Shown: one piece after another, positions 13,052 through 51,094 of the stretch
How the letters are laid out: every line of letters begins with the position of its first letter
Numbering within the stretch: position 1 is the stretch's first letter
Source of the DNA: Muribaculaceae bacterium Zag1
GTDB lineage: Bacteria > Bacteroidota > Bacteroidia > Bacteroidales > Muribaculaceae
Direction of reading: 5' to 3'
NCBI GenBank assembly: GCA_002633115.1
Contig: NWBJ01000132.1
Coordinates: 17,506-69,024 of the forward strand
Length of the DNA: 51,519 nt
Made by a program: the position numbers and the translations under genes
The notes under the pieces: model-generated
Seen by the model: the letters and a program-made list of their open reading frames with translations, nothing else
The model's database searches: none
Told to the model about the DNA's origin: nothing

Positions 13052-13066
13052 AAACTCAATTTGCGG

Positions 13067-13352: not shown

Positions 13353-13393
13353 CGGGAGTGAAACAAATGTGGAACTAAAAAAACTTTTTGATA

Positions 13394-24366: not shown

Positions 24367-24944
24367 TGTTGTGGCAGTTATTCATAACCTTTTTTAAGAT
24401 TGGCGCATTCACCTTCGGTGGTGGATGGGCCATGATTTCTATTATCGAGAAGGAAGTGGTAGACAAGCGCCATTGGGTGACCAAGGAGGATTTTCTTGAC
24501 CAGCTCATTGTGGCTCAGTCGCTCCCGGGCCTGTTGGCAGCTAATATTGCCGTAGGCGTGGGCGATAAGATACGCGGTCGCATAGGCAGCATTATCTCGA
24601 CCATTGGCATCGTCCTCCCTTCTTTCTTGATGATTCTGATTATCGCCATATTCCTGACGCCTGACCTGATCAACCATAATCCCACATTGGCTGCCATCTT
24701 CAAGGGCATACGGCCAGCCGTGGTGGCTCTGATTATCGCACCGGTAATCACCACCGCCAAGACGGCAAAACTGAAGTGGAGCACAGCGTGGATTCCGGTC
24801 ATCGTGGCCCTGCTCATCTGGAGCAAATGGCCCATAGTCTCTAACCCCATCCTCTGGGTCGTCCTCGGAGCATTGCTCGGCGTGTGCTATGCACGCCGAG
24901 CAATGCTCCGAAGTCAAAAGTCAAAAGTCAAAAGTCAAGAGTGA
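24366..24944 (+). CDS. Chromate transporter half-protein (CHR family), N-terminal partner
   Basis: A 192-residue membrane protein of the short-chain CHR family, in which two homologous half-proteins encoded in tandem make one transporter for chromate or another oxyanion. The N-terminal signature FFKIGAFTFGGGWAMISIIEKE and LIVAQSLPGLLAANIAVGVG match the family, followed by about five hydrophobic helices. The natural C-terminus is disturbed: 24866-24910 is a perfect 19-bp inverted repeat inside the coding sequence, and the protein then ends in SQKSKVKSQE encoded by the AAAAGTC repeat, which also supplies the TGA stop. It overlaps valS by one base and is followed 68 bp later by its partner. Confidence 0.9.
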   Translation: MLWQLFITFFKIGAFTFGGGWAMISIIEKEVVDKRHWVTKEDFLDQLIVAQSLPGLLAANIAVGVGDKIRGRIGSIISTIGIVLPSFLMILIIAIFLTPDLINHNPTLAAIFKGIRPAVVALIIAPVITTAKTAKLKWSTAWIPVIVALLIWSKWPIVSNPILWVVLGALLGVCYARRAMLRSQKSKVKSQE

Positions 24945-25010
24945 AAGTTACTTTTGACTTGATACTCTTGACTTGATACTTTTGACTTTTGACTTTTGAC
25001 TTTTGACTTG
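24866..25010. repeat. Perfect 19-bp hairpin plus AAAAGTC-word inverted repeat
   Basis: 24866-24884 and 24892-24910 are perfectly complementary with a 7-nt loop and lie within the 3' end of the upstream CDS. They are followed at once by AAAAGTC words (24911-24936), the stop codon and reverse-complement GACTTTT words up to 25010. The whole region spans the end of one chromate-transporter half-gene and nearly touches the next start codon at 25013. Confidence 0.85.
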
Positions 25011-25012
25011 AT

Positions 25013-29760: not shown

Positions 29761-30200
29761 CTATGCTAATTCAGACTCCCTTGTAAACTAAAATGGCGTT
29801 TAGTGCGTTAAAGGGGTGGATTTTTGTTGTGGTTTACCCTAAAGGGTAGACCAAAAAATAGTGACTTAATAAAATTTAAATAATAACCATTATCCAAGTG
29901 TAATCTATCAGATTACACTCTGTAATTTCATAGATTACAAACCTGTAACAACTTATCGATAAAAAATCCGTAACTTTGCATCGGATTTTTGTTAATACTC
30001 ATTTCCATAGCTGACGCACAGGCCGATGCCCGCCCTCAAAACCCCGAGCTGAGCGCCTGAGGCGAACCATTTTTGTTTAATACTTAATTTTACTTTCACC
30101 GACTAATCAGACATAAACCGAGACCAGTCGTTTTCAACCACATATCTTAACATAATAGTAAGCCAACACCCAAGGGCCAAGCGTGGCCCCACATAGCGTG
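29761..30200 (+). promoter_or_regulatory. Upstream control region of the exopolysaccharide locus
   Basis: No gene is seen. A palindrome TACCCTAAAGGGTA lies at about 29835-29848. Two dyads follow, 22 bp apart centre to centre: AGTGTAATCT-ATC-AGATTACACT (29897-29919) and TGTAAT-N7-ATTACA (29921-29939). A -7 box TAACTTTG is at 29971-29978 without an obvious -33, which fits an activator-dependent promoter. The leader to the first start codon is over 200 nt long, and no known antiterminator or riboswitch element was recognised in it. Confidence 0.6.
29897..29939. promoter_or_regulatory. Tandem TGTAATCT/AGATTACA operator-like dyads
   Basis: Two inverted repeats with the same half-site (TGTAAT/ATTACA), the first with perfect 10-bp arms, are spaced about two helical turns apart and end about 30 bp before the -7 box of the exopolysaccharide operon. 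This looks like a pair of binding sites for a dimeric regulator, most likely an activator given the missing -33 element. The regulator is not encoded in this window as far as I can tell. Confidence 0.6.
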
Positions 30201-31403
30201 ATGATAGAAAAGAAAAGAAATACTAACGACGCAAAGCACACCGTCGCCTCCGCCTCCGGGCGCCAGAGCGCTCGCGCTCAGCACCTCGCTGACATGCGCG
30301 TGCTCCAGCTCGGCAAATTCTACCCGCTGCGCGGAGGCGTGGAGAAGGTGATGTACTCCCTGATGGAGGGCCTCTCGGCCCGAGAACTCAGGTGCGACAT
30401 GCTGTGCGCCTCGGAGACCGGCTCGCGCCTGCGCGAGAACCTGAACCCGTGGGCCACGCTGATGTGCTCGCCCTCGTGGGGCAAGCTCAACGGCACCATG
30501 ATGTCGCCCCGCATGATCTCGGCCATGCGCCGCATCGCCTCGACTTACGACATCGTGCATGTGCACCATCCCGACCCGATGGCCGCACTCAGCCTGTGGC
30601 TGAGCGGATTCAAGGGCCGGGTAGTGCTGCATTGGCACAGCGATATCGTAAAGCAGCATCGCATGCTTCAGGCTTACAAACCGCTCCAGCGCTGGCTGTT
30701 GCGCCGCGCCGACGTCATAGTATGCACCACCGAGCCGTACATGCGCGGCTCGGAATAACTCAAGCCATACCTGCAGAAATGCACCGTGGTGCCCATCGGC
30801 ATCCCGGCGCTGCAACCCGACCAAGAGCTGACCCGCAGCATCACCGAGCGCTACGCCGGCCGCAAGCTGCTCTTCGCCCTCGGGTGCCTCGTCCCATACA
30901 AGGGATTTGAGCACCTGGTCGAGGCCGCAGCCCTGCTCCCTGACGAATACGTGGTGGTGATCGGCGGCACTGGCCCCCTGCGCTCCAACCTGGAGCACGC
31001 CATCGCCGAGCGCGGCTTGGGCGGCAAGGTCATCCTGGCCGGATACCTGAGCGACCAAGAGGTGGGCGCCTATTTTGGCGCTTGCACGATGTTCTGCTTC
31101 CCCTCGGTGCAGAAGACCGAGGCTTTCGGCATCGTCCAGCTCGAGGCCATGTCGGTGGGCAAGCCGATCGTGGCAACCGACATTCCCGGTTCGGGCGTGT
31201 CGTGGGTCAATGCCCACGGCGTGTCGGGCCTCAACGTGCCGGTAGGCGATGCCCAGGCCCTGGCCGATGCCATCCAGCAGATATCCTCAACGCCCGAGGC
31301 GCTCAGCCGGTTCGCCCAGGGCGCTCAGCAGCGCTACCAGGATACCTTCACCCACGACAAGATGGTGGAATCAACAATCCGAATTTACTCCTCAATCTTA
31401 TAA
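30201..31403 (+). pseudogene. GT4-family glycosyltransferase interrupted by an in-frame TAA
   Basis: A glycosyltransferase of the GT-B/GT4 type acting in exopolysaccharide assembly. The N-terminal half has MRVLQLGKFYPLRGGVEKVM (an alternative start at 30294) and YDIVHVHHPDPMAALSLWLS. The C-terminal half has ALGCLVPYKGFEHLVEAAALL, VVIGGTGPLRSNLE and FPSVQKTEAFGIVQLEAMS with the nucleotide-sugar-binding glutamates. Both halves are in the same frame, separated only by the TAA at 30756-30758 in ...MRGSE-stop-LKPYLQKC. The codon was probably sense originally (for example Leu or Glu). A GTG at 30786 could restart translation of the second half, but a split GT-B enzyme is unlikely to be normal. Sequencing error is possible. 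It is first in the locus, so polar effects matter. Confidence 0.85.
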
Positions 31404-31415: not shown

Positions 31416-32129
31416 ATGACCAACCATTACACCGACCTCGATAACCTGAAGACCTGCTACGAGAAGGACTACCTGTCCTTCCCGCTGCGCAGCGCCTTCG
31501 CCCAAGAGCGCCCCCAAAAGCTCAAGTCAAAGGCTTCGCCGATGTCGTACAAGGCCAAGCGCGCCATGGACATCGCCGTGGCGGTGGCGGGGCTGATATG
31601 CATCTCGCCGGTGTTTGCGGTCATATACATAGCAATCCGATGGAGCGACGGCTGCAATCCCATATTCAGCCAGGAGCGCATCGGCATGCACGGCAGGGAA
31701 TTTTACATCTACAAATTCAGGTCGATGCGCGTCGATGCCGAGAGCGCGGGAGCTCCCCAGCTCTGCAACGGCGACGACGATGACCGGCTCACGCCGATCG
31801 GCCGCTTCCTCAGGGCCCACCATCTCGATGAGATCCCACAGCTGTGGAATGTGCTCAAGGGCGACATGAGCCTCGTCGGCTACCGCCCGGAGCGCAAATT
31901 CTTCATCAACCAGATACGCGCCCTCGCCCCCGAGTACGACCTGCTCTACTCGATGCGTCCCGGAGTATTCTCCTACGCTACCCTCTACAACGGATACACC
32001 GACACCATGGCTAAGATGCTGACGCGTCTGAGAATGGACCTCGACTATCTGCGCGATTTCTCAATCACCACCGACCTGAGGATCATCTCGCTCACGCTGA
32101 CCTCGATCCTCACCGGCAAGAAATTCTGA
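31416..32129 (+). CDS. Undecaprenyl-phosphate sugar phosphotransferase (WcaJ/PglC-like)
   Basis: Transfers a sugar-1-phosphate from a nucleotide sugar to undecaprenyl phosphate, the first membrane step of exopolysaccharide repeat-unit synthesis. The 237-residue protein has one membrane segment at about 51-74, then the bacterial sugar transferase domain: FSQERIGMHGREFYIYKFRSM (conserved YKFRSM at 99-104), TPIGRFLR at 126-133, and DEIPQLWNVLKGDMSLVG beginning at 138. The long polytopic N-terminal part of WbaP/WcaJ is missing, so it is the short monotopic form. The ATG at 31416 lies 12 bp after the glycosyltransferase stop and 5 bp separate it from the PqqD-like gene. Confidence 0.92.
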   Translation: MTNHYTDLDNLKTCYEKDYLSFPLRSAFAQERPQKLKSKASPMSYKAKRAMDIAVAVAGLICISPVFAVIYIAIRWSDGCNPIFSQERIGMHGREFYIYKFRSMRVDAESAGAPQLCNGDDDDRLTPIGRFLRAHHLDEIPQLWNVLKGDMSLVGYRPERKFFINQIRALAPEYDLLYSMRPGVFSYATLYNGYTDTMAKMLTRLRMDLDYLRDFSITTDLRIISLTLTSILTGKKF

Positions 32130-32134: not shown

Positions 32135-32401
32135 ATGCGTATTAAAAAAGACATAAAACTCAGAAAGATTGGCGGGGTCTATATGATAGTCAACCTGTCG
32201 GACCCCACGGTGAATCTGGCCAATGTGCTCTCGCTCAACGAGACGGCAGCCGAGCTATGGCGCGAGTTTCGCGACCGCGACTTCCAGCCTAGCGACCTGG
32301 CCTCCTGGCTCTGCGCCCACTACGACGTCGACGCCCCCACCGCCCAATCAGACATCAATCGCCTGCTCGACACCTGGCGCGAGGCGGGGATTTTTAATTG
32401 A
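32135..32401 (+). CDS. PqqD-family peptide-binding protein (RRE-like)
   Basis: An 88-residue protein with the PqqD fold: an N-terminal beta pair (LRKIGGVYMIVNLSDPT), the signature LNETAAELWREF at 34-45, then FQPSDLASWLCAHYDVD and AQSDINRLLDTWREAG. PqqD proteins bind leader peptides of ribosomally made, modified peptides and present them to enzymes. In HPr-rel-A type loci a PqqD relative accompanies an HprK-like kinase in polysaccharide clusters. Here it lies 5 bp after the sugar transferase gene and directly before the nucleotidyltransferase and kinase genes, so the three probably work together. No precursor peptide is evident. The fold is secure; the partner is unknown. Confidence 0.85.
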   Translation: MRIKKDIKLRKIGGVYMIVNLSDPTVNLANVLSLNETAAELWREFRDRDFQPSDLASWLCAHYDVDAPTAQSDINRLLDTWREAGIFN

Positions 32402-32445
32402 ATAATAAACCCATTAACAACCCAATCCGTACGGCGGCCTCTTGT

Positions 32446-32466
32446 GTTAGGCCGTTCCGCGGCCTA
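32446..32466 (+). promoter_or_regulatory. Small hairpin between the PqqD and nucleotidyltransferase genes
   Basis: TTAGGCCG and CGGCCTAA pair around a 5-nt loop immediately before the nucleotidyltransferase start at 32472. A similar GCTCCGCGGCCTA word occurs at 35688-35704 before wzc. There is no T-run, so attenuation or an mRNA-processing role is more likely than termination; this is inference. Confidence 0.4.
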
Positions 32467-32471
32467 ATTAT

Positions 32472-33581
32472 ATGATAAATTACCGACATACCGACCTGCT
32501 GCTGGCGCTCCTGCGCCTGGCCCTCTGGGCCGACAAGGAGCCGTTCCTGGCCCTCTCCCCGGTTAGCCCCGAGGAGTGGCAGGCTGCCTACAACCTGGCG
32601 GCATGCCATGCCGTGACCGGCGTGGCCTGGCAGGGGATATGTCAGCTTGACGCCGCCGAGCTGCCCCCAACCGAGCTGCTCTGCATCTGGACTGCCAAGG
32701 CTACCGCCCTCGAGAAATCGTCAGAGCGCATGAATCAGGTGCTCTCGGCCCTGATGGAGCGCCTCGGCTCAGCCGGCCTGCGCCCGGTGGTGATGAAGGG
32801 CCAGACCGTTGCCGCCCTCTACCCCAAGCCGCTGCTGCGCGAGACGGGCGACATCGACCTGTACTTCCCCGAGCGCGCCGACATGGATGCTTGCATCTCG
32901 GCCCTCGAGCCGGCCGCCGCCAGCCCCGACGGCAGCTACCGCGCCCGATACATGGGCGTAGAGGTAGAGATCAATCCGACCCTGATCGACCTGACCTCGG
33001 GCCGCAAGACCCGCAGCGTCAGCGCCTCGATAGCTCCCGAGCAGTTTGTCGAGGTCGACGCGGCCCCCGGGCTGCGCCTCCGCGCCTCGGCTCCGCAGGT
33101 CAACCTGCTGCTGCTCAGCTCGCATATCCTCAAGCACACCTTCGGTCGCGGCATCGGGCTGCGCCAGATGTGCGACTTGGCGATGGCTTGCCGCGCCTAT
33201 CGCGGCAAGATCGACCCGGCTCACCAGGCGCGCGCCTCGCGCCGCATGGGGCTCCGGGCCTGGGACCGGCACCTCTACTCGTTCCTGGTGCGCCAATTGG
33301 GCATGCCCACCGAGTATGTGCCCTACAAGATACGGCTCTCAAAGAGCCACACGCTCTCGCAGCGGGTGCTGCTCGGCGGCAACTTCGGCCGCATGGTCTA
33401 CAGCCCCTCGGCCAACAGCGTGAAGAGCAAGGGCGTCACCGCCCTCTCGCTGCTCCGCTCCTCGCTCTGGAGCCTGCGCATCGCCCCCAGAAAGTATCTC
33501 AAATGTATTTCCAGTTTGGCCATCGGCCAATTCCGATTGCTAAAGCCAAGTCAAAAGTCAAAAGTCAAAAGTCAAGAGTGA
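32472..33581 (+). CDS. Nucleotidyltransferase family protein (NTP_transf_5-like)
   Basis: A 369-residue protein of the uncharacterised nucleotidyltransferase family (PF14907 type). The polymerase-beta-like core is visible: VVMKGQTVAALYPKPLLRET leading into GDIDLYF at 126-132 with the two metal-binding aspartates, then VEVEINPTLID with a third acidic site. The rest is helical. Relatives occur in lasso-peptide clusters together with HprK-like kinases. The product ends in the tail SQKSKVKSQE, encoded by the AAAAGTC repeat that also supplies the TGA stop. The genuine end of the domain was probably ten residues earlier. It lies between the PqqD-like and HprK-like genes and its acceptor is unknown. 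Confidence 0.82.
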   Translation: MINYRHTDLLLALLRLALWADKEPFLALSPVSPEEWQAAYNLAACHAVTGVAWQGICQLDAAELPPTELLCIWTAKATALEKSSERMNQVLSALMERLGSAGLRPVVMKGQTVAALYPKPLLRETGDIDLYFPERADMDACISALEPAAASPDGSYRARYMGVEVEINPTLIDLTSGRKTRSVSASIAPEQFVEVDAAPGLRLRASAPQVNLLLLSSHILKHTFGRGIGLRQMCDLAMACRAYRGKIDPAHQARASRRMGLRAWDRHLYSFLVRQLGMPTEYVPYKIRLSKSHTLSQRVLLGGNFGRMVYSPSANSVKSKGVTALSLLRSSLWSLRIAPRKYLKCISSLAIGQFRLLKPSQKSKVKSQE

Positions 33582-33695
33582 AAGTTACCATTCGCCTTTT
33601 GAATTTGACGATAACCAGCGATTTCCCGCGTTAGCCTACTTTTGACTTTTGACTTTTGACTTTTGACTTCAACTTTTGACTTTTGACTTTTGACT
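33548..33695. repeat. AAAAGTC-word inverted repeat between nucleotidyltransferase and kinase genes
   Basis: Starts inside the 3' end of the nucleotidyltransferase gene (AAGTC words, 33548-33576). The middle, from about 33590 to 33638, is unrelated spacer. It ends in ten or so GACTTTT words that reach the kinase ATG at 33697. It is the second copy of the element seen at 24911-25010, with the same frame and the same TGA stop. Confidence 0.85.
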
Positions 33696-33696
33696 T

Positions 33697-34821
33697 ATGA
33701 CTTACAGCATAGCAGGATTTGATGTAGAGCTGAATTTGCCACAGGATGTGGCAAAGAGGCTGTTGCCGACGATGGAGCCGTTCCGGGCTCCGGCGTCGGG
33801 CGATCCGCTGTGCCGTATCCAAATATCAGATTCTCCTTCTCTTCCTCAGCCCAAGGGCGAACTGCTCGGCGACTATCCATCGGATACTGGCCGCGTGCTT
33901 GCCTATCGGGACCCTGCCGGATATCTCCTTATTGTATCATACCCCGACGGCACCGAGGTGGCCGTCGTGGCCAACCCGGCATTCACCTCGGCGCTGGTAG
34001 CCCTCAGCTTCTCGGCCCCGCTGGCGGGCGAGATTCTGGCGGCTGCTATTCGCCTGGTTTTCACCCAGGCCATCACCCCATACCAGGCTTTTGCCATCCA
34101 CGCCTCTTGCACAGTGGCTGAGGGCATGGCCTACCTGTTCTGCGGCGTAAGCGGCGCCGGCAAGAGCACCCACTCGGCAATGTGGCTTCGCGCCATCCCC
34201 GGCGCTTGGCTGCTCAACGACGACTGCGTGATCGTGCGCCTCGACGAGGACGGCACGCCCCGCGCCTACGGTTCGCCGTGGAGCGGCAAGACTCCCTGCT
34301 ACCGCGCAGCGTGCGCCCCGGTCGCTGCCATGGTGCGCGTCGACAAGGCCCCGGCTAACAGCTACGAGCCGCTCTCAGACATCGCCGCCTTTGGCGCAGT
34401 GCTGCCCGGTGTATCGGCCATGCGCGCCGAGGGCGACTATTTCGCCCACGTCTGCGACACCCTCGCCGCCACCCTCAACCGTATCCAGGTCGGCATCATC
34501 CACTGCCAAGCAGTCCCTGAGGCAGCTGTCGCTTGCCATCAGGGATTAAGTCAAAAGTCAAAAGTCAAAAGTCAAGAGTGGAAATTACCATCGGCTGATG
34601 ACACGGCTGCTGGCTCGATAGGCGATCACCCTGGCCCCACTGTTCCTCGCGCTTCGGGCGCGAGTATAGTGATTAACGATGACTCGATAGGCGATCACCC
34701 TGGCACCACTGTTCCTCGCGCTTCGGGCACGAGTATAATGATTAACGATGACTCGATAGGCGATCACCCTGGCACCACTGTTCCTCGCGCTTCGGGCGCG
34801 AGTATAATGATTAACTCATAA
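33697..34821 (+). CDS. HPr-kinase-like P-loop protein with a stop-loss C-terminal repeat extension
   Basis: A 374-residue protein related to the catalytic domain of HPr Ser kinase (HprK-related kinase type). Seen: FAIHASCTV near 132-140, the Walker A loop GVSGAGKST at 150-158, a Walker-B-like LLNDDCVIV at 172-180 and GSPWSGKTP at 192-200. Such kinases phosphorylate serine on a protein or peptide; no HPr is encoded nearby. The domain ends near residue 284. Next comes SQKSKVKSQE, as in two other proteins of this window, but the following TGA is TGG here, so translation continues for 80 residues. That extension includes three 23-residue repeats (SIGDHPGTTVPRASG...). The gene follows the PqqD-like and nucleotidyltransferase genes. 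Phosphorylation of envelope export proteins or of an unseen peptide is inference. Confidence 0.8.
   Translation: MTYSIAGFDVELNLPQDVAKRLLPTMEPFRAPASGDPLCRIQISDSPSLPQPKGELLGDYPSDTGRVLAYRDPAGYLLIVSYPDGTEVAVVANPAFTSALVALSFSAPLAGEILAAAIRLVFTQAITPYQAFAIHASCTVAEGMAYLFCGVSGAGKSTHSAMWLRAIPGAWLLNDDCVIVRLDEDGTPRAYGSPWSGKTPCYRAACAPVAAMVRVDKAPANSYEPLSDIAAFGAVLPGVSAMRAEGDYFAHVCDTLAATLNRIQVGIIHCQAVPEAAVACHQGLSQKSKVKSQEWKLPSADDTAAGSIGDHPGPTVPRASGASIVINDDSIGDHPGTTVPRASGTSIMINDDSIGDHPGTTVPRASGASIMINS
34614..34818 (+). repeat. Three tandem 69-bp repeats in the 3' end of the kinase gene
   Basis: Units begin at 34614, 34683 and 34752 and differ at only a few positions. Each contains a CTCGCGC-TTCG-GGCGCGAG hairpin with a TTCG tetraloop (imperfect in the second unit) and ends in GATTAAC. 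In frame they encode 23 residues each. They lie downstream of the mutated stop codon, so they are probably former intergenic DNA now translated. Confidence 0.85.
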
Positions 34822-34837: not shown

Positions 34838-35623
34838 GTGAAGACATTAAGATTCATATTAATCTCGGCAATGTGCGCGGCGATGGTGTCATGCGGCAGT
34901 CACAAGAAGAAGAGCTTTGTGTACCTGCAGGACATGACCCCGGGCCTGGGCTACCCAAGCGAGATCGCGGCTCAGACCACGGTCCGCCCCGGCGACAAGC
35001 TCAGCATAACCGTCACCTGCAAGAACCCGGAGCTGGCTGCCCCGTTCAATGCCAGCACGGTCACCATGGGCTCGGACGGCTCGGTCCGCTCGGTCGACCT
35101 CGACAACACATACCGCGTTGACCCCAACGGCTACATCGACTTCCCGGTGCTCGGCGAAATCCGAGTCGAGGACAAGACCCTGGCCCAGGTGCGCGAGTTG
35201 ATCAAAGAAAAGATAGAGGAGGGGAACTACATCAAGAATCCCATCGTCAAGTGCGAGCTCCTCAACCTAAGATATACAGTGCTTGGCGCTGTGGGCAGCA
35301 ACGGCAACTTCTCGACCGACGAGGGCCGCATCACGCTGCTCGAGGCGATAGCCAACGCCGGCGATATCACCGCCAACGGCCGCATCGACAATGTGGCTGT
35401 GATACGCGAGGAGGATGGGGGACGCACCCTGTACACTCACGACCTCAAGTCGCACGAGTTGTTTGACAGCCCCTGCTTCTATCTGCAGCAAAACGATATC
35501 GTCTACGTTGAGCCCAAGCGCAACAAGGACACCCACTCCGAGGACCTATCCTGGAAGGTGATCACCGTCGCCCTCTCAGCGATATCAACCGTGACCGCCG
35601 TCCTCTGGTACACAACCAAATAG
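34838..35623 (+). CDS. Polysaccharide export outer-membrane lipoprotein (Wza-like)
   Basis: A 261-residue lipoprotein, the outer-membrane channel partner of the following Wzc. The signal peptide ends in the lipobox MVSC (Cys19). The export domain starts near 48 (TTVRPGDKLSITVTCKNPEL), with YIDFPVLGEIRVEDKTLAQV in the middle and an SLBB-like TVLGAVGSNGNFSTDEGRIT. A C-terminal helix (VITVALSAISTVTAVLWY) would cross the outer membrane. It is a clear paralogue of the gene at 7749. The start is GTG at 34838, 16 bp after the kinase stop; no closer ATG gives a signal peptide. Confidence 0.92.
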   Translation: MKTLRFILISAMCAAMVSCGSHKKKSFVYLQDMTPGLGYPSEIAAQTTVRPGDKLSITVTCKNPELAAPFNASTVTMGSDGSVRSVDLDNTYRVDPNGYIDFPVLGEIRVEDKTLAQVRELIKEKIEEGNYIKNPIVKCELLNLRYTVLGAVGSNGNFSTDEGRITLLEAIANAGDITANGRIDNVAVIREEDGGRTLYTHDLKSHELFDSPCFYLQQNDIVYVEPKRNKDTHSEDLSWKVITVALSAISTVTAVLWYTTK

Positions 35624-35799: not shown

Positions 35800-38250
35800 A
35801 TGACTAACAACCAAAATATAAAAATCGACTCGAGCCTCAATGTCTCGGATGTCCTCGGCTTCTTGCTCAGCAAGTGGCCCTGGTTCGTGCTGTCGATCTT
35901 GATCTGCGTCGGGGCGGCCTACTACAAATACGCCACCGCGCCCCTGGTCTACTTCCAGCAGACCACGGTCATCATCAAGGACCCTGCCAACAAGACATCG
36001 ACCGCGGGCCTCGACCGCTACGACAACCTTATAAATAAGGTAAATGTCGCCAACGAAATACTGCAGTTCCGATCCAAGCGCCTGATGGCCGAGGTGGTGA
36101 CAAGGCTAAACGCCGACATCGACTACAAGTACAAACAGGGCCTCCGAGAGGTCGAACTCGCAAACCAAGCACCATTCAAAATCACATTGTCAAACGTACT
36201 TCCTCAACGCCATTTCTCATTCAAAGTGACCGAGAAGTCTCCCGACGAAGTTGTCTTTACCGATTTTTCTGGCTTCGGCGGGGAGATCGAACCGATGACC
36301 GTGAGCTTCGGCCAGACCATCCAGATTGGCGATGAGCAGATCACTATCAACAAGACCGACTACTACCGCGACCTGTGGGTAGGCAAGGAGATTGACGTCA
36401 CCAAGTGGCCGGTGGCTTGGGTGGCAGCACGCTACCTCGGCAACCTGGGCATCTCGCAGGCCAACGACGAGGCTTCAATCCTCACCCTGCGTCTCAAGGA
36501 CAACAATCCCAGCCGTGGCATCGACGTGCTCAACACCCTGGTGGCTGTATACAACGAAGAGGCCATCAACGACAAGAACAAGGTGGCTGTCAACACCGCC
36601 GAGTTTATCCGCGAGCGTCTCCAGATCATCGAGTCTGAGCTCGGCGACGTAGAGTCGGAAATCGAGAATTTCAAGCAAGAAAACAAGATAATCAGCGTCA
36701 GCTCGGCTGCCTCGCAATACATGGGCGAGAGCCAGCGATACAACGCTGAGAGCCTCGAGCTGGAGACCCAGCTCAAGCTGGCAGCCTACATCAAGGAATA
36801 CCTGCAGGACGCATCTAAGCAGAACGACCTGATTCCTACCAACACCGGCATCTCGGACGGCTCGATCGAGGCGCAGATTGCCAACTACAACGCTGCCAAG
36901 CTCAAGCGCGACCGCCTGCTGGCCGACAGCAGCGATGCCAACCCCGTGGTCGAGGAGCTGACCAAGTCGCTCCACTCGATGCGCCAGACCATCGTGCGCT
37001 CGATCGACAATATGGTGGTTTCGCTCAATGTGAAGCGCGACGACGCTATGCGCCGCACCGCCTCGGCTCAGACCCGCGTGTACCAAATCCCGACCAAGGA
37101 GAGGCAGATGCTCTCGATCGAGCGTCAGCAAAAGATCAAGGAGAGCCTGTATATGTTTCTGCTCAACCGCCGCGAGGAGAACGCTCTGTCTCAGGCCCTG
37201 GCCGACAACAACGCTTACGTCATCGACAGCGCCGAGGGCTCGAACAGCCCAATCTCGCCGGTGCGCAACAAGATTCTGCTCTGCGGCTTGCTCGTGGGCG
37301 TGGCTATTCCGCTGGTGATCTTCCTGGTGCGCCTGTTCTTTGACACCCGCGTGCGCAGCCGCAAGGACATTGAGAATCTGGTATCCATCCCATTCCTCGG
37401 CGAAATCCCCCAAGGCCCCAAGGGCAAGAAGGGCGAGAAGCTGCCCGAGATCGTGACTCCGGCCAGCAACGAGGACAAATCGCTCGACCGCTCGCTGCTG
37501 GGCGAGGCATTCCGCATCGTGCGCTCAAATATCTCGTTCATGTCTAAGAAGAAGACTGGCGCTCAGGTCATTACCTTCACCTCGTTCAACGAGGGCGCCG
37601 GCAAGACCTTCATCTCGCGCAACCTGGCTCGCTCTCTGGCGCAGACCAAAAAGCGCGTGGCGCTCATCGACTTGGATATCCGCAAGCGCACGCTCAGCCA
37701 TCAGTTCGACAAGCACCAGTATGGCGTGACCAACTTCTTGGCCGACCCGATGCTGTGTGTCGAGGATATCACCATTCAAGACAAAGACTTTGACAACCTG
37801 CATATCATCCCTGGCGGCACTCCGGCTCCCAACCCGGCAGAGTTGCTGATGGATGACCGTCTCGACGAGCTCATCGCTGAGCTGCGCGAGCGGTACGATT
37901 ACATCGTGGCCGACAATGTGCCTGTTGGCGTGGTGGCCGATGCCTCCATCACCAACCGCATCAGCGACCTGACTATTTTTGTGGCTCGCGCCGGCAAGAT
38001 TGACCGACGCCAGCTGCCCGACCTCGAGGCCCTGTACCAAAAGGGCAAGCTCCACAACATGGCCATCATCCTCAACGGCGTGTCGGTCTACCACCACCGC
38101 TACGGTTACGGATATGGCTACGGTTACGGCTATGGTTACGGCTACGGTTACGGCTATGGCCACTCCTACGGCTACGCCTACGGCACCGATGGCCACCGCT
38201 CCCACAAAAAGAAGAAAAAGCAAAAGGAACCCGTGGAAGCAACCCCATAG
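35800..38250 (+). CDS. Wzc-type tyrosine-protein kinase / polysaccharide co-polymerase
   Basis: An 816-residue inner-membrane protein controlling chain length and export of the polysaccharide. The Wzz domain starts at the N-terminus with a membrane helix (WPWFVLSILICVGAAYYKY near 26-45). A long periplasmic coiled region follows, then a second helix near 489-508 and a cytoplasmic BY-kinase domain: Walker A NEGAGKT near 597-603, A' VALIDLDIRK near 620-629 and the Walker B region YIVADNVP near 699-706. The C-terminus is an extreme tyrosine cluster, about fifteen Tyr-Gly steps (767-794), then a lysine-rich end. Autophosphorylation of such clusters regulates assembly in the family. No Wzx or Wzy gene is nearby. 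Confidence 0.95.
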   Translation: MTNNQNIKIDSSLNVSDVLGFLLSKWPWFVLSILICVGAAYYKYATAPLVYFQQTTVIIKDPANKTSTAGLDRYDNLINKVNVANEILQFRSKRLMAEVVTRLNADIDYKYKQGLREVELANQAPFKITLSNVLPQRHFSFKVTEKSPDEVVFTDFSGFGGEIEPMTVSFGQTIQIGDEQITINKTDYYRDLWVGKEIDVTKWPVAWVAARYLGNLGISQANDEASILTLRLKDNNPSRGIDVLNTLVAVYNEEAINDKNKVAVNTAEFIRERLQIIESELGDVESEIENFKQENKIISVSSAASQYMGESQRYNAESLELETQLKLAAYIKEYLQDASKQNDLIPTNTGISDGSIEAQIANYNAAKLKRDRLLADSSDANPVVEELTKSLHSMRQTIVRSIDNMVVSLNVKRDDAMRRTASAQTRVYQIPTKERQMLSIERQQKIKESLYMFLLNRREENALSQALADNNAYVIDSAEGSNSPISPVRNKILLCGLLVGVAIPLVIFLVRLFFDTRVRSRKDIENLVSIPFLGEIPQGPKGKKGEKLPEIVTPASNEDKSLDRSLLGEAFRIVRSNISFMSKKKTGAQVITFTSFNEGAGKTFISRNLARSLAQTKKRVALIDLDIRKRTLSHQFDKHQYGVTNFLADPMLCVEDITIQDKDFDNLHIIPGGTPAPNPAELLMDDRLDELIAELRERYDYIVADNVPVGVVADASITNRISDLTIFVARAGKIDRRQLPDLEALYQKGKLHNMAIILNGVSVYHHRYGYGYGYGYGYGYGYGYGYGHSYGYAYGTDGHRSHKKKKKQKEPVEATP
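38098..38190 (+). repeat. Tyr-Gly codon repeat tract in the wzc 3' end
   Basis: A run of TACGGT/TACGGC/TATGGC hexamers encodes the tyrosine-rich tail of Wzc. Gain or loss of one 6-bp unit keeps the frame and changes the number of phosphorylatable tyrosines. Confidence 0.85.
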
Positions 38251-38796: not shown

Positions 38797-38976
38797 ATGA
38801 ACAAAAAATCTTATCTCCCTCCCCTCTGCTCCATGACCCATGTGGTCCTGGAAATGGGCCTATGTGCTACCGATTCAGGTCTCCCTGCTAATGTAACGAC
38901 TGAAGGAACCATTAAAGTACAGGAATATAAAGCAGTTGGTGACAATGACGGCTTTAACGATATAACTTTTGATTAA
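38797..38976 (+). CDS. Small 59-residue peptide heading the surface-protein island
   Basis: An open frame from ATG at 38797 to TAA at 38974-38976. The product starts MNKKSYLPPLCSMTHVVLEM, then has LCATDSGLPANVTT and ends in an acidic GDNDGFNDITFD. It resembles small Bacteroidales proteins of the MKK-Y-x-P type with a VLC/ILC-A-S motif in the middle and an acidic aromatic end, often found before fimbrial or surface-protein genes; this likeness is from memory. There is no clear signal peptide. It ends 19 bp before the first DUF4906 gene, so co-transcription is likely. Its function is unknown; a role as leader peptide, chaperone or secreted signal is speculation. Confidence 0.6.
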   Translation: MNKKSYLPPLCSMTHVVLEMGLCATDSGLPANVTTEGTIKVQEYKAVGDNDGFNDITFD

Positions 38977-38995: not shown

Positions 38996-41900
38996 ATGAA
39001 TTTTATCAAAAAACACCTATGGGTGGGGTGTGCACTTTTTATTGCTGCCCTTACTCCGAGCTGCCACGATGACATAAAGTTATCGTCTACACCCGATGGT
39101 TTGCCAGCTACAGTCAAATTGGAATTTCAAGTTCCAACTGGAGTCACTATAGAAAGCAGCCGCGCCGTGGATGATAGTGAGAGTGAAGTGTCAGAATTAT
39201 ATCTGGTTATGTACTCACAAACCAATAGAGTAGAAGTAATTCCGATAACTGGACTTACTACGACTAAAATCGGAGAAAATAATGGCTACAGAGAATACAC
39301 GCTTGAGGCTACAGTATCGACCCTATCAGGAGACTATACGGTGTATGCTATAGCCAATCCATCATCTAATTTCTGTAATTTATTGGATGAAATTCAGGCT
39401 TATCCCTCAAAAGAAAAATTAGCGTCACTATTGAGCAATAGTGCTAATGTTATCCAAATGTCTGGAAGCAACCGCATCCCAATGAGTGGAAAATGCACGA
39501 GTAATGGGAGTGAAACTATCTCCATACAACCTGATGGTGATGACTATTCATCGACTAATCCTCAAAGTTTAAATATTGAGTGTACTTTAGAGCGCTTGAT
39601 GGCTCATATAGAGTTTACATTTACAAGCGATACTGAGGGTGTGACCTTTACTCCGGTTTCCTATAGGGTCTACAATCTTCCAAAGAATGCTAGGCTGATT
39701 AATTCTGGATCTTCAAGTGGTAACATGCTTTCAGAGGATGAAAACCCGGAATATTTTAATATGTCGGAAGCTATTACCATAACTGAGGATGACTTCTCAT
39801 TCTTAATGCTGGAGAATGTTCAAGATGATGTAACGAATCAGCTACCATCTTCTTATACAAATGGCGATGAGACTGTAGAGGTAGGAAAAGTATTCTTCAG
39901 AGAGCAATGGAGCGGTGGAGATTTAGGCACTAGTGATGGCACAAATTTTGAAACTGTAGATCCAGCTAAAAAGGTATTTGACTACGCTCCTGAGAATTCT
40001 ACGTTCGTGGTAATATCCGGTACTTATGAAGGCCCCTATTTTGAGGCTGGTGCCACTACCCCTACCAATTATCGCGGAACAGTAACCTATACCGTACACT
40101 TAGGCGATTTTGGCGCTAGTTCTACCACCGGAGGAAGTGCTGGCAATTACACAGTGAATCGTAATGAGATTCATAAATATCGTATCCATGTCAACGGCGT
40201 ATCAAGCATTATTGCAGAATCGAATGTTACTGACCTCACTAAGAAGCATCAATTCAATCAGGGAGCCGAAGGTGTGCTGATTCGATCTGAAAATGAGTTT
40301 GTATTGGATGCCCATTATGAAACCTTGTTGATTACCCTGACTGAGACTGATATTACCACTATAAAAAATGGTTGGACTAATCGTACTCTTACGCTAGGAA
40401 TTTCTTCCCCATACAATTCTTTTAATTATACTGTTTACAAGCAGGATGATGACAGCAATGACTACTACGATGCGAACTTAAAGGGATCAAATTGGCTAAA
40501 AAATCCTGCTATCGATTACACTTGGCTTCAGTTTATGAAGCCTATTGAACAAGGCGTAATTCCTCGTTTCCCTGGATATCAGTATGATAGCAATGGAAAT
40601 TTGCTAACCGATCAAACATATACTGACCAGGTGTTGTTGAACCAAGCCTACCCCAGCAGTACAATTTATACTTCTGGAAGTTACGGTGAAGGAGAAAGTG
40701 TGACTATTGGTTACCTTTGTGATTTCTGTGCCAATCCAGAAGCTTACTGCTATAAGTATACAAAGAATGAGGAAAATTATTATGAAGTTGCCATATTCGT
40801 TGATGAATATGTTTATGGCTCTCATAATCCCAAGAATGCAGCACTCAGAATTAACCGTTGGGTAAATACAGCGAATCGTGAGTTAATTCTTAATCCTGTT
40901 AAAATCGCAATATCGGGAGATCAACAATCAGTGACTTACGATCAGTTTATTTTCAGTATTGCTCAGCGCTCTATCAAGACTCCCTATAATCTGACTGTGC
41001 TTATGGATGCAACAGATAATTCATTCAATAGTGCTTTCGGTCTTGAAACATGGGATGAAACTTCAGAATTCGCTTGTGAAACGGGCAGACCTTATGGGGG
41101 TATTGAAGCCTATGATGCTCTTACTACCTCTTATGTAAGAACTGTTACCAAGAGTGATGGCTCTACTGAGACTATTACAATATCTCCCTATAACTCTAAT
41201 AATACGGGCCCAGCCTATCATGAAATGTATGGTCGTCTGAACACATTGGCCCTTCATCAGATGTCAGGTAATAAAGCTCCTGATGACTATTGGAAATATG
41301 CAGGATATAATGGGGCGCGTGATAACAATAACCTTAAGAGCCATACTTGGGAATTGTATAAACGAGGCGGTGTTTATGCCCAAATTAATGCCATGCAGGC
41401 AATGATGATGCGAAATCGCGATCTCAATGGCAATGGCCAGTTGGATGAAAATGAAATCAAGTGGTATCTTCCCGCAATAGCTCAGATGTATACTGTATGG
41501 CTTGGCCAAACTGCACTCCCAGGCGATACGCGATTGATGGATTTGACCTATTTTAATAACAATACGTTATATGATGATACCAGTTATTCCCTAACCTATA
41601 AGAACTATACTGATAGTTATAGTAATAAAACTCTCACTTCTGATTTTATGAACTTATTTCCTCATTATTTCACAAGCACAGGTGGTGATGCGCTTGTATA
41701 TTGGCAAGATCAAGGTACTTCTATTTCTTCAAGAAAAGATATGACTGGATCTTGGTGCCAGCCATATAATTATGCGCGTGCGGTACGTAATATCCCTAAC
41801 TATAATACGGTGCCTGACTTCCCAGTTGATGGAGAAAGAATGAGGAGCGATAACGTAATTCTTGTCGAGGGCCTCTCTCAGGAATTCCTGCGCACATCCA

Positions 41901-42505
41901 GTTTTACGGGTAACGTATACGACTTCCATAATGAGCGTGATGATGAGAATTACTTGTATAAAGCAATTCAAGTGTCAGAGAATGAGTATACAATTGCCCC
42001 GTATACAAAATCTGATGGCACTACTTATAGCTTAGAGAACTGTCAAAACGATATAAATTGTACCACTACGAGTAATGGTAGTACAGTGTTAGCTGATGAA
42101 GATGATATAAAAGCCAAATGGCAGACCATTTATAACAATGTGATTAAGGAACAACTGTCTGGAAATGATGCTCAGTATTCAGATTGGAGATTTCCCAATC
42201 AGCGTGAGCTTATGCTCCTCTATAGATACAAGGATAAAAATGGCAATGCTTATTATAATGAAATAAGCACTACTATTTATTATCTGTGTAGTACTTATTT
42301 CACTCACTATAAGGTTCGAGCCTATCCCTTCACTATCAATAATGGACGTATGAATCTTGTTGGAGATTCCAATTTTAAAGCAGCATCAGAATATAAGGTG
42401 AGACTTGTGCGCGACTATACTGGACCCATCACGGAGAGTACCTCTACCAATACTAGCACTAACACCACTTATCAGCCTGGTGGTGCTGCAGGAGGTGTCT
42501 ATTAA
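38996..42505 (+). CDS. DUF4906-type large surface lipoprotein (first copy)
   Basis: A 1169-residue lipoprotein with signal peptide and lipobox TPSC (Cys23), followed by HDDIKLSSTPDGLPA. The N-terminal third is built like fimbrillin-type beta domains (VKLEFQVPTG, ELYLVMYSQTNRVEVI, YTVYAIANPSSNF). The middle has the family block ERLMAHIEFTF...FLMLENVQDDVTNQLP. Near the C-terminus WRFPNQRELMLLYRYK and VRLVRDYTGP recall the Lcl/FISUMP-like C-terminal domain. It is homologous over its length with the gene at 43783. The coding sequence is distinctly AT-richer than the exopolysaccharide genes. It is probably a surface-exposed fimbria-associated or tip protein; that role is inferred from its neighbour. 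Confidence 0.82.
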   Translation: MNFIKKHLWVGCALFIAALTPSCHDDIKLSSTPDGLPATVKLEFQVPTGVTIESSRAVDDSESEVSELYLVMYSQTNRVEVIPITGLTTTKIGENNGYREYTLEATVSTLSGDYTVYAIANPSSNFCNLLDEIQAYPSKEKLASLLSNSANVIQMSGSNRIPMSGKCTSNGSETISIQPDGDDYSSTNPQSLNIECTLERLMAHIEFTFTSDTEGVTFTPVSYRVYNLPKNARLINSGSSSGNMLSEDENPEYFNMSEAITITEDDFSFLMLENVQDDVTNQLPSSYTNGDETVEVGKVFFREQWSGGDLGTSDGTNFETVDPAKKVFDYAPENSTFVVISGTYEGPYFEAGATTPTNYRGTVTYTVHLGDFGASSTTGGSAGNYTVNRNEIHKYRIHVNGVSSIIAESNVTDLTKKHQFNQGAEGVLIRSENEFVLDAHYETLLITLTETDITTIKNGWTNRTLTLGISSPYNSFNYTVYKQDDDSNDYYDANLKGSNWLKNPAIDYTWLQFMKPIEQGVIPRFPGYQYDSNGNLLTDQTYTDQVLLNQAYPSSTIYTSGSYGEGESVTIGYLCDFCANPEAYCYKYTKNEENYYEVAIFVDEYVYGSHNPKNAALRINRWVNTANRELILNPVKIAISGDQQSVTYDQFIFSIAQRSIKTPYNLTVLMDATDNSFNSAFGLETWDETSEFACETGRPYGGIEAYDALTTSYVRTVTKSDGSTETITISPYNSNNTGPAYHEMYGRLNTLALHQMSGNKAPDDYWKYAGYNGARDNNNLKSHTWELYKRGGVYAQINAMQAMMMRNRDLNGNGQLDENEIKWYLPAIAQMYTVWLGQTALPGDTRLMDLTYFNNNTLYDDTSYSLTYKNYTDSYSNKTLTSDFMNLFPHYFTSTGGDALVYWQDQGTSISSRKDMTGSWCQPYNYARAVRNIPNYNTVPDFPVDGERMRSDNVILVEGLSQEFLRTSSFTGNVYDFHNERDDENYLYKAIQVSENEYTIAPYTKSDGTTYSLENCQNDINCTTTSNGSTVLADEDDIKAKWQTIYNNVIKEQLSGNDAQYSDWRFPNQRELMLLYRYKDKNGNAYYNEISTTIYYLCSTYFTHYKVRAYPFTINNGRMNLVGDSNFKAASEYKVRLVRDYTGPITESTSTNTSTNTTYQPGGAAGGVY

Positions 42506-48421: not shown

Positions 48422-51094
48422 ATGAAGATATACCGAGTGATTGGCTTGGCTGCCGCTGCGGCAGCCATGGCGTTGACCGCTTGTAGCGACGACGACGCGC
48501 AATTTGTTAATGCTCCCAGGCAGGTGAGCGTTAACGCCAGAAATGTAGCCGCCAGCGCCGACGGCGCCTCAAGAGACAATGCCAGCGCCCTCCTGGCTGG
48601 CACCCCAGCCGGCGATGAGTGCGCCTCGCGCACCCAGATCGGCAACACCACCGACGGCAACCTCCACATCGAGTGGGTCAGCGGCGACAAGATCGGCGTA
48701 TTCGGCTCGGGGAGCGCCGAGCAGTCCGAACTCACCCCGAGCCTCAGCTCGGGCCAGACAGCCGAGCAGACCCTCTTCACCGGCACCGTCAGCGGCGACA
48801 TCACCGCCGCCTACTACCCCTACCAGGGCGCGGCTACCGCCACCAGCGTGCCCGTCGCCATCGGCGACCAGACATACACCGGCGTCGCCTCGATCGCCGA
48901 CACCGACATCAAGGTCGGCGACATTGCCACCATGGGCAGCGACGGCTCAAGCTACGACATCGACTTTTACCCCTTAGTCTCGATGATCTGCATCCAGGTC
49001 AGCGCCGGCAGCACCGAAATCGCCAACACCGAGACCCTCAACAGCATCAAGATTGCCAACACCGAGGGTGCCCGCAACGGCGCCTGGGCCGGCTCATTCA
49101 CCTTCAACCCCACCGACGGCAAGGATGCCGCCCTCAGCGTCACCGATGCGCAGGACAATATCTCGATCGGCCTCGGCAGCGGCGTCGGCCTAACCCAGAC
49201 AACCGAGATATATTGCGCCATGGCGCCGGGCCTGAAGCAGGGCGACCTCATCGATGTCACCCTCACCACCGACCAGTGGGATGTGACCATGACATTCACC
49301 GTGCAGCAGGATGTGGTGGCGGGTGCATTCTACACCATGCCCATCGACATGGCTGTGGCTGAGCTGAATAAGGACAAATACAACTACCGCATCAACCCCG
49401 TCAGCAAGAGCGACGAAAGGCTCTCGTCAGGCGCCCTGCAGAGCCTGACCTTCGCCCTGGCCGACAATGCCGACCTATGCACCAAGGAGGTCAAGGTCAG
49501 GGTCAACTACAACTCCAGTACCACCGTCAGCGATGCCAGCGACTACACGCTCGACATCACCGAGGGCGACGACGGCGGCACTATCAACCTATGCATTCCT
49601 TATCTATACAACTTCACGATCGTGCCGCGATTCACGCTCGGCAGCGCCGACTACACCCTGCGCACGAGCCGAGGCGTGATCACCTCGGGCGAGACGGCTG
49701 TGGATTTCTCCGAGCCGGTGACCCTCACGGTGAGGGACTCAGAGGGTAGGGAGCGCGACTACGTCGTTACGGTCACCAATTCGGGGCTGCCCGTGGTGGT
49801 GCTGAATACCAACGGCGATGACGGCACGGTGACCTACAGCTGGGCACACACCACGGTGGCCGACAAGACGAGCGATTGGCCGAGCGCCAACACGTTCGCA
49901 CTCTACGACCACTCAAAGCCGAGCAACAATATCGAGACGATGGACTGCGGCTTCCGCCTGCGCGGCAACTCATCAAAGAGTATGCCCCAGAAACCCTTCG
50001 CCATCAAGCTGAGCTCGAAGCAGAAGGTGCTGGGCATGGCCTCGCACAAGCGCTGGTGCCTGCTGGCGGGGTGGCAGGACAATTCGCGCATCCGCAATCA
50101 GGTAGCATTCGAGGTGGCAAGGGTGATACAGGAGCATTTCGCCAGCCTCGACGGCTTTGACCCGGGCCTGGTGTGGAACCCCTCGGGCAAGAATGTCGAG
50201 GTGGTGCTCGATGGCGCGCACATCGGCAACTATCTGCTGTGCGAGCAGATCAAGATCGGCTCGAAGCGCCTCAACATCGCCGACTGCTATGAGGACAGGC
50301 TGGCCGAAGGCCTCGACTGCGGGTTTGGCGATTGCGGCTATCTGCTTGAGTTTGATACCAATTATGACGAGACGTATAAATTCTATACCTCATCGCGGGG
50401 GTTGCCCTGCATGAGCAAAGATGATGTGCTGACCGACGATATCTGGAATCAGCTTAAGGCATATATCAATACAGTGGATGCGTGCATTGTCAATGGGCAA
50501 TATGTTGAATCTCAGCAGTATCTTGACTGGGCATCGGTGATTGACTGGTGGTTTGTGTACGAGCTGACTATGAACGATGAGTACAAGCACCCCAAGAGCG
50601 TGTATATGTACAAGGATGGCGCCGGGCTGCTTTGCGCCGGCCCGGTCTGGGACTTTGACTACCAGACATTCCCGGATATCTCGGCTATCAACAGCAACCG
50701 GGTGCTCAACAATAATGGCAGCAACACTTATGGCTATACTTATCAGTCGCTGATGTGCCAGGAGAATAGCAGCGGCGTGTACATGTGGTATCCCTTGCTG
50801 CTGCAGAGCTCCGAGTTTAAGACCATGCTCAAGGAGCGCTGGGAGTCGGTGTATTCCTCGCTGTCATCAGTAACCTCGGTAATCGATGAGCTCGGCGAGC
50901 TCAACGCCCTCAGCTGGGAGTACAACCACGCTCAGTGGTGGGTATCGCCCACAGATGCCCGCACCATCATGAACTGGTTCATCGACTGCGCCGGCGACGA
51001 GCTCCTCACCGACTACCCCACCATCATCTCCACCCTCAAAGCCAGCTACCAATCCCGCCTCTCCGGGCTTAACACGGCTATCAACAACCTGTAA
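48422..51094 (+). CDS. Lipoprotein fusing a fimbrillin-like domain to a CotH kinase domain
   Basis: An 890-residue exported lipoprotein (lipobox LTAC, Cys21). Residues ~80-305 are a fimbrillin-like domain with IEWVSGDKIGVFGSGSAEQ, LFTGTVSGDITAAYYPYQ and YDIDFYPLVSMICIQV, closely matching the fimbrillin at 42565. Residues ~320-455 look like an Ig-like linker. Residues ~460-885 are a CotH kinase domain: GFRLRGNSSKSMPQKPFAIKL near 509-530, KRWCLLAGWQDNSRIRNQVA, VVLDGAHIGNYLLCEQIKIG, and GPVWDFDY near 741-748 with the metal-binding DFD. CotH proteins are secretory kinases that phosphorylate spore-coat proteins in Bacillus. Here the kinase may be anchored to, or act on, the fimbrial structure. GC content is high, unlike the DUF4906 genes. 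The fusion is seen directly; the target is inference. Confidence 0.87.
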   Translation: MKIYRVIGLAAAAAAMALTACSDDDAQFVNAPRQVSVNARNVAASADGASRDNASALLAGTPAGDECASRTQIGNTTDGNLHIEWVSGDKIGVFGSGSAEQSELTPSLSSGQTAEQTLFTGTVSGDITAAYYPYQGAATATSVPVAIGDQTYTGVASIADTDIKVGDIATMGSDGSSYDIDFYPLVSMICIQVSAGSTEIANTETLNSIKIANTEGARNGAWAGSFTFNPTDGKDAALSVTDAQDNISIGLGSGVGLTQTTEIYCAMAPGLKQGDLIDVTLTTDQWDVTMTFTVQQDVVAGAFYTMPIDMAVAELNKDKYNYRINPVSKSDERLSSGALQSLTFALADNADLCTKEVKVRVNYNSSTTVSDASDYTLDITEGDDGGTINLCIPYLYNFTIVPRFTLGSADYTLRTSRGVITSGETAVDFSEPVTLTVRDSEGRERDYVVTVTNSGLPVVVLNTNGDDGTVTYSWAHTTVADKTSDWPSANTFALYDHSKPSNNIETMDCGFRLRGNSSKSMPQKPFAIKLSSKQKVLGMASHKRWCLLAGWQDNSRIRNQVAFEVARVIQEHFASLDGFDPGLVWNPSGKNVEVVLDGAHIGNYLLCEQIKIGSKRLNIADCYEDRLAEGLDCGFGDCGYLLEFDTNYDETYKFYTSSRGLPCMSKDDVLTDDIWNQLKAYINTVDACIVNGQYVESQQYLDWASVIDWWFVYELTMNDEYKHPKSVYMYKDGAGLLCAGPVWDFDYQTFPDISAINSNRVLNNNGSNTYGYTYQSLMCQENSSGVYMWYPLLLQSSEFKTMLKERWESVYSSLSSVTSVIDELGELNALSWEYNHAQWWVSPTDARTIMNWFIDCAGDELLTDYPTIISTLKASYQSRLSGLNTAINNL

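Follow-up and report, generated by a model that had tools for sequence, protein, structure and literature searches.

What do a PqqD-fold protein, a PF14907 nucleotidyltransferase and an HprK-like kinase do when their genes lie side by side between the priming sugar transferase and the Wza and Wzc genes of an exopolysaccharide operon? The question is raised by a 51,519-nt stretch of the genome of Muribaculaceae bacterium Zag1 (contig NWBJ01000132.1 of assembly GCA_002633115.1), hereafter the window, in whose coordinates positions are given; its genome is designated G000 and the window locus itself L001. An original prediction from the sequence had proposed that the trio is a leader-binding, phosphorylating and nucleotidylating module that modifies an unrecognised peptide or an envelope export protein, and had put it forward as an undescribed system. 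The trio coordinates stand as first given, and Pfam matches and a fold search agree that three such adjacent genes lie inside an exopolysaccharide operon. The system itself is no longer undescribed: the same five-enzyme set was published in May 2026 (Nat Commun, PMC13381572) as the pathway of linear polyphosphorylated peptides (LPPs), a ribosomally synthesized and post-translationally modified peptide (RiPP) pathway of Bacillota found in capsule loci. Besides the precursor LppA, the set comprises LppB, a RiPP recognition element (RRE); LppK, an HprK-like kinase; LppN, a nucleoside triphosphate (NTP) transferase; LppS, a SipW-like leader peptidase; and LppD, an MsbA-like exporter (PMC13381572). 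We consider it likely that these three proteins form the core, in the cytoplasm, of a Bacteroidota pathway of peptide phosphorylation and processing that resembles LPP, a reading that draws on gene content, intact catalytic residues, conserved gene order, co-occurrence, a conserved leader and YxxP-reading residues.

Conserved residues of the three enzymes

The PqqD-fold protein matched PF05402 at 53.3 bits (cut-off 23.4), and the structures nearest to its model in a fold search were complexes of lasso-peptide B1 proteins with their leaders (TbiB1, TfuB1). Residues N35, Y63 and D73 are invariant in all 74 aligned relatives and fall on N33, Y60 and D70 of LppB in a profile alignment to 9x8z_B that is weak (14.7 bits, E 0.22) and in which the 9x8z_B numbering was offset by 18 to agree with the residues that PMC13381572 names. 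In LppB, N33 and D70 were tested by mutation for reading of the YxxP leader motif, while Y60 was assigned from the structure (PMC13381572). The window protein appears to keep these YxxP-reading residues and is predicted from its sequence to bind a leader. Residue alignments here and below exclude the window locus and any fragment less than 60% as long as its reference (the L064 protein in the case of PqqD); the PqqD alignment also leaves out the L039 protein, which lies on the opposite strand.

The kinase fell short of every Pfam cut-off, its best score being to AAA_33 (21.7 of 27 bits), and because its similarity to solved structures was weak at the sequence level we relied on a fold search. 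Its AlphaFold model, built with 23 sequences, has predicted local distance difference test (pLDDT) scores that exceed 90 at most positions as far as residue ~285, and Foldseek placed it with PEPCK (1oen, E 3.7e-6, TM-score 0.40) and HprK/P (1kkl_B, E 1.1e-4, TM-score 0.23), these TM-scores being normalised by query length and modest. Residues H135, K156, D175 and D176 are invariant in 80 of 80 aligned relatives; we read them, without an alignment to PadeK, as the published His-Lys-Asp-Asp motif, which lasso-type kinases need (review PMC9266682). Residues 291-374, on the other hand, are encoded by AAGTCAA heptamers and three 69-nt repeats, are modelled as disordered (pLDDT below 50) and are missing in most of 22 aligned relatives, which end near residue 290; L002 shares part of this tail. 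Since the tail is repeat-derived, disordered in the model and absent from most relatives, the functional part of the kinase probably extends only to about 34560.

The repeats have a wider distribution in the window. AAGTCAA arrays (24909-25011, 33546-33698 and 34546-34580) account for 17 overlapping matches against 0 expected; they face each other at two places, and one array enters a coding frame. The three 69-nt repeats, at 34614-34815, lengthen the kinase reading frame, and a 21-base exact probe from them had no match in 198 loci except in L001, at the same place.

The nucleotidyltransferase lies far above the 31.2-bit cut-off of PF14907, by name an uncharacterised nucleotidyltransferase family, and K109, G110, G126, D127, D129, E166 and H222 are invariant in 21 of 21 aligned relatives; a search of solved structures gave no meaningful relatives. 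It is the single PF14907 match in the window genome. Among 72,556 plasmid records, a search with one such nucleotidyltransferase found 3 matches, from Segatella and Prevotella and 23-28% identical. The catalytic residues of the kinase and the nucleotidyltransferase, whose ablation would have undermined the original prediction, are intact in the relatives aligned.

Two arrangements among related loci

A kinase scan of genome contigs returned at least 570 relatives, and neighbourhoods were compared across the 80 best loci. Two arrangements cover these loci. In type A (21/80) the PqqD, nucleotidyltransferase and kinase genes occur together, accompanied by a sugar transferase match in 19 of the 21 and by Wza in 20; an ABC gene lies between members of the trio in L032, and their order differs in L069. 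The remaining loci, type B (59/80), mostly carry Prevotella or Prevotellaceae titles; here the kinase adjoins a peptidase of ~160 residues, PqqD is present in 55 of 59, and no nucleotidyltransferase match lies within the flank examined. In each of five type B loci examined closely, these genes come after a sigma-factor-like (rpoD-like) gene, a name that, like the other names without a family score (GT2, fimbrillin-like, HU-like), was assigned by eye.

The peptidase is SipW-like, and its residues S25, H66 and D81 are invariant in 63 of 63 aligned relatives; we take them, without an alignment to LppS, to correspond to S29, H68 and D93, which LppS uses in an LppB-dependent manner (PMC13381572). 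Matches to Peptidase_S24 (PF00717) exceeded the cut-off in L007 (36.2 bits) and L032 (28.6) and stayed below it in L044 (20.6). The window genome encodes one such homologue, on contig C67, and one clear MsbA-like exporter homologue, on contig C45 (426 bits, versus 125 for the next). Homologues of all five LPP core enzymes are thereby present in this genome, split among contigs, and these parts may once have been together. In line with the original prediction, no B2 protease or cyclase was found among the 23 window open reading frames (ORFs) scanned; its view that a protease is lacking does not extend to the genome, nor to relatives in which the peptidase is encoded in the same locus. Peptidase and exporter share the locus of the trio in L007, L016, L032, L077 (= L159), L156, L157, L162 and L165, being placed inside it in L032 and otherwise 7-15 kb away (on the opposite strand in L157); L158 has the peptidase alone and L041 the exporter alone. 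Kinase, peptidase and nucleotidyltransferase lie within ~3.5 kb of one another in at least 5 of the 249 genomes described below (G320, G353, G359, G360, G419).

Several features of these loci were observed alongside. The C67 peptidase gene is ~2-5 kb from glycosyltransferase-like genes (by eye) of the kind found upstream of other type A loci. In the type B locus L044 (9435-9911) and its relatives, a small protein with a signal-like start and no match in Pfam or NCBIfam is encoded between the sigma-factor-like gene and the kinase. L197 holds a PqqD-nucleotidyltransferase pair without a kinase (1116-2615) and, near it (3996-16797), two facing surface-protein units that each end in a near-identical peptide gene.

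A candidate precursor peptide family

The original prediction had left its peptide substrate unrecognised and suggested a search for a conserved small ORF nearby. Comparison of small ORFs from 24 loci revealed one family, encoded after Wzc in 12 loci, which a profile search raised to 14 loci plus one weak match in L046; the copy in the window had been overlooked. Five members tried against Pfam and six against NCBIfam gave no family match, apart from one unrelated Pfam match, far under its cut-off, for the L033 peptide. Tyr6, Pro9, Val16 and Glu19 are invariant in the 14 aligned peptides. A wider set of 57 peptides, registered on YxxP such that Tyr and Pro are 100% conserved by construction, reads KKxYxxPxTxxxxVExExxFMxAS, followed by a core with a median of 34 residues and a net charge of -5. 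In 66% of these members the residue at position 21, counted from the Tyr, is a Ser; because the window peptide reads CATDSG there, its phosphorylation site may be a Thr or a shifted Ser. A conserved neighbourhood, intact catalytic residues in the aligned relatives and a candidate peptide support the proposal that a leader-binding and phosphorylating module, which includes a nucleotidyltransferase, probably modifies a peptide.

The window and L002, whose upstream flanking genes are 93-96% identical at the DNA level, have all 28 leader residues of the peptide in common and differ in 15 of the 31 core residues (Table 1), where the leader/core boundary at codon 28 is defined as the point at which the two sequences part and not by a known cleavage site. 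A second copy of the peptide in the window genome, on contig C39, follows another Wzc. The gene directly downstream of the window peptide encodes a large surface protein with a lipobox-like start (by eye) and an Lcl_C match under the cut-off (31.5 of 34.9 bits). In L194 and L197 the peptide gene instead comes last, after large surface-protein genes. The pairing of the peptides with lipoprotein genes suggests a surface role. In G244, nine leader matches (L183-L191) were read, all directly upstream of lipoprotein genes, several of them also near a small HU-like gene.

Co-occurrence of enzymes and leader

Co-occurrence was assessed in 249 genomes obtained in one draw from the family of G167, among which the window's own genome is not included. 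The kinase was found in 188, the peptidase in 190 and the nucleotidyltransferase in 178. The peptidase accompanies the kinase in 188/188 kinase-positive genomes versus 2/61 kinase-negative ones, and the corresponding figures for the nucleotidyltransferase are 171/188 and 7/61. A strong peptide match (E<=1e-8) was present in 21 of 22 type A genomes versus 1 of 227 others, or in 17 of 18 versus 1 of 227 once the four genomes that contributed rows to the model were removed, where type A denotes a nucleotidyltransferase match of at least 429 bits with an adjacent kinase match (for G228 this adjacency is not among the matches listed) and both thresholds were chosen after the lists had been seen. 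The type A genome without the peptide is G313, whose contig ends ~460 bp after Wzc.

A shorter model of the YxxP leader, spanning 26 positions, matched 148 genomes at E<=0.1, comprising 146 of the 190 peptidase-positive and 2 of the 59 peptidase-negative genomes, with up to 34 matches in a single genome (G244). At E<=1e-3 the leader was found in 95/190 peptidase-positive versus 0/59 peptidase-negative genomes, and in 76/171 versus 0/59 without the 19 seed genomes. Among the 30 genomes of chosen loci, the strict peptide model matched 25 at E<=0.05 (type A 19/20, type B 6/10). In an order-wide sample of 148 genomes, for which the peptide model alone was run, the strict match was confined to G000 and, weakly, G049.

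Layout of the operon

The features of the locus are collected in Table 1. The GT4 gene, which carries an in-frame stop in the window, is a single intact ORF of 406 residues in L002, of equal length and aligned without gaps; the stop may be either a sequencing error or a true loss. Downstream of the operon, at 48422-51094, a CotH-type kinase domain is fused to a region that appears fimbrillin-like.

Table 1 Features of the window locus, in window coordinates.
Feature	Position	Strand	Support or remark
AAGTCAA heptamer array	24909-25011		
GT4 glycosyltransferase gene	30183..31403	+	in-frame stop in window; two ORFs here
Priming sugar-phosphate transferase (Bac_transf)	31416..32129	+	PF02397, 191 bits
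PqqD-fold protein, predicted discrete RRE (LppB/B1-like)	32135..32401	+	PF05402
PF14907 nucleotidyltransferase (LppN/PsmN-like by name)	32472..33581	+	113.2 bits
AAGTCAA heptamer arrays in facing orientation, nucleotidyltransferase-kinase border	33548..33703	.	
HprK/PEPCK-fold kinase (LppK/PadeK-like)	33697..34821, folded domain ~33697-34560	+	Foldseek, conserved residues
AAGTCAA array and three 69-nt tandem repeats encoding the kinase C-terminal tail	34548..34815	.	
Wza-like polysaccharide export protein	34838..35623	+	PF02563 (Poly_export), 70 bits
Wzc-like tyrosine autokinase	35800..38250	+	TIGR01007, 145 bits, cut-off 108
Candidate precursor peptide, 59 residues, YxxP leader	38797..38976	+	
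Predicted leader, 28 codons	38797..38880	+	vs L002: 0 non-synonymous, 3 synonymous changes
Predicted core, 31 codons	38881..38973	+	vs L002: 15 non-synonymous, 8 synonymous changes
Large lipoprotein-like surface protein	38996..42505	+	20 bp 3′ of peptide gene

An LPP-like pathway and its alternatives

In the pathway that we propose, the PqqD protein would bind YxxP in the leader of the window peptide, and probably also the leader of the second copy on C39, and the HprK-fold kinase would phosphorylate a Ser or Thr close to where leader and core meet. The SipW-like serine peptidase encoded on C67 and the MsbA-like ABC protein encoded on C45 would then act in trans, the former removing the leader and the latter exporting the product. 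The nucleotidyltransferase may attach a sugar or a nucleotide to this phosphate; the location of the trio in a polysaccharide operon would then make sense. Binding, phosphorylation, cleavage and export, as well as the identity of the product, are what we infer from the conserved genes and residues. A bolder and decidedly tentative extension is that a single kinase-RRE-peptidase set per genome serves, in trans, an entire YxxP peptide family whose members are mostly encoded upstream of their own lipoproteins, with the mature phosphopeptide serving as a partner, plug or tag of the lipoprotein and, where the nucleotidyltransferase is present, being joined through phosphoserine to a sugar or exopolysaccharide. 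If true, such a trans-acting system would represent a RiPP with a structural role at the cell surface, not an antibiotic.

An LPP-like reading must nevertheless be made cautiously, as a number of results weigh against it. Peptidase and exporter are absent from the window operon and from 12 of 18 downstream stretches in relatives (three of these short). The precursors of Bacillota read YxxPxVLxHQxIxFETxxS, whereas the window leader keeps YxxP without the HQxIxFET part, and searches with that motif, in a strict form over 24 loci and a second form over a wider set, gave one chance-like match each (L033, L080). YxxP is itself a weak motif: a loose search for [YW]xxPx[LVIFAM] near the N-terminus matched as many as 151 small ORFs across the 24 loci, so that it was abandoned as a precursor criterion, and most of our candidates have Thr after Px, outside [LVIFAM]. 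The contrast between leader and core is confounded because the next gene has diverged as well, the lipoprotein-like protein being 42% identical to that of L002 over 425 residues; core and lipoprotein may have changed fast, or a cassette exchange or recombination break may be responsible. The peptides also track lipoprotein genes, a lipobox gene following 59 of 75 peptides versus 42 of 262 baseline ORFs, in a count where the simple lipobox pattern missed clear cases, including that of the window; ten of the 75 peptides come from a single genome, and some from loci that overlap. The C39 copy follows a Wzc, and this genome has a single PF14907 gene. Half of the peptidase-positive genomes (95/190) have no leader match at E<=1e-3, 4 of the 10 type B genomes have no strict-model match even at E<=0.05, and G259 and G379 combine a peptidase and a leader match (3.3e-8 and 0.014, respectively) without a kinase match, the peptidase match of G259 being marginal (2.3e-7). 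Finally, the thresholds for type A genomes and strong matches are post hoc, and shared ancestry can inflate the co-occurrence tables, whose counts carry no tree correction.

One may postulate an alternative scenario, unlikely in our estimate, in which a glycan or lipid-linked sugar is what the trio modifies: sugar-phosphate intermediates would be the substrates of the kinase and the PF14907 protein, PqqD would serve as a scaffold, and the peptide would be an unrelated lipoprotein partner. The sugar transferase and Wza matches of type A loci fit this scenario, as do the peptides' attachment to lipoprotein genes rather than to the trio and the link between PsmN, a nucleotidyltransferase homologue, and hexose addition (PMC9266682). 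Against it, type B loci, which make up 59 of 80, have the kinase beside a peptidase with no nucleotidyltransferase match in the flank examined; it is hard to see what a leader peptidase would do to a glycan, and the YxxP-reading residues of PqqD are invariant. The same type B loci, whose examined flanks contain neither a Wza nor a Wzc match, count against the idea that the module phosphorylates an export protein (Wzc or Wza) and thereby tunes capsule export, which we regard as very improbable; the conserved trio-Wza-Wzc order is in its favor, and the five such or similar loci that follow an rpoD-like gene (by eye) are not. No result points to an export protein as the target or to a coupling of capsule export to metabolism, the other half of the original prediction, in an analysis that addressed neither directly.

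We give the least credence to the view that the trio is what remains of a lasso-peptide cluster after loss of the cyclase and the B2 protease. A lasso B1 model is indeed the source of the best score for PqqD, yet at 27.5 bits it falls short of its 70-bit cut-off, and a further B1 model reaches 12.1 of 80 bits; kinase, nucleotidyltransferase, RRE and exporter do recur in paeninodin-type clusters (PMC9266682, PMC13381572). No asparagine-synthase- or transglutaminase-like family was detected by Pfam in the 23 window ORFs scanned (a subset), the rest of the genome not having been searched, and the co-occurring peptidase is of the SipW type. The best-supported reading of the set is machinery that works like the LPP pathway, in a phylum new to it and with a precursor family that is also new.

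Comparison with known systems

HPr-rel-A systems (TIGR04352, TIGR04353) also combine a kinase with a PqqD relative. Membership in these systems, which the original prediction had cited as known, was rejected, as both proteins scored below the NCBIfam cut-offs (kinase to TIGR04352, 17 of 200 bits; PqqD to TIGR04353, 18 of 35 bits). The SynChlorMet cassette (ScmC, ScmD) offers weak kinase similarity only, in the window (16.4 of 125 bits) and in L007 (21.2 bits), far below the cut-off, and membership was rejected.

Phosphorylated lasso peptides (paeninodin and pseudomycoidin, with PadeK, ThcoK, PsmK and PsmN) share with the window an HprK-like kinase with the His-Lys-Asp-Asp motif, a nucleotidyltransferase homologue, a discrete B1 protein and an exporter. 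PsmN, which is homologous to nucleotidyltransferases, adds hexoses to phosphoserine, an alternative being left open (PMC9266682). These systems differ in the B2 protease and cyclase, of which there is neither among the window ORFs scanned, and in the RRE: paeninodin RREs have Gly/Gln at the leader-reading positions and read WxxP (PMC13381572), whereas the window PqqD has Asn/Asp.

The closest likeness is to the LPP pathway. The window shares with it a cluster of RRE, HprK-like kinase and NTP transferase, a capsule-type locus, a YxxP leader and, within the limits of the weak alignment, the RRE residues N33, Y60 and D70; the nucleotidyltransferase is likened to LppN by name. The wider Bacteroidota set adds a SipW-like peptidase (Ser-His-Asp) and an MsbA-like exporter, which in the window genome lie on other contigs. 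In the LPP pathway, LppK polyphosphorylates a Ser of the core, and deletion of lppN caused no detectable change (PMC13381572). Unlike the pathway of Bacillota, the five Bacteroidota enzymes are often split among loci, many of which have kinase, peptidase and PqqD alone, and the precursors are dispersed, usually beside a lipoprotein gene. Because the precursor departs from the published motif beyond YxxP, and the product chemistry is only inferred, the system should not be classed as LPP proper.

No LPP-like system of Bacteroidota was found in print in the open-access literature, excluding preprints. The main text of PMC13381572 contains no word starting with "Bacteroid", and the accessible text of PMC10352776 has PqqD once, in its references, and no signal peptidase, nucleotidyltransferase or polysaccharide. 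The authors of the LPP study describe the pathway as restricted to Bacillota and the role of LPPs as unknown (PMC13381572). Our analysis would extend such a pathway to the Bacteroidales, where, in a sample of 249 genomes at family level, 188 have the kinase, and it names a concrete precursor family, outside Pfam and NCBIfam among the members tried, that is linked to surface lipoproteins; this pairing potentially provides a direct handle on the role of the peptides.

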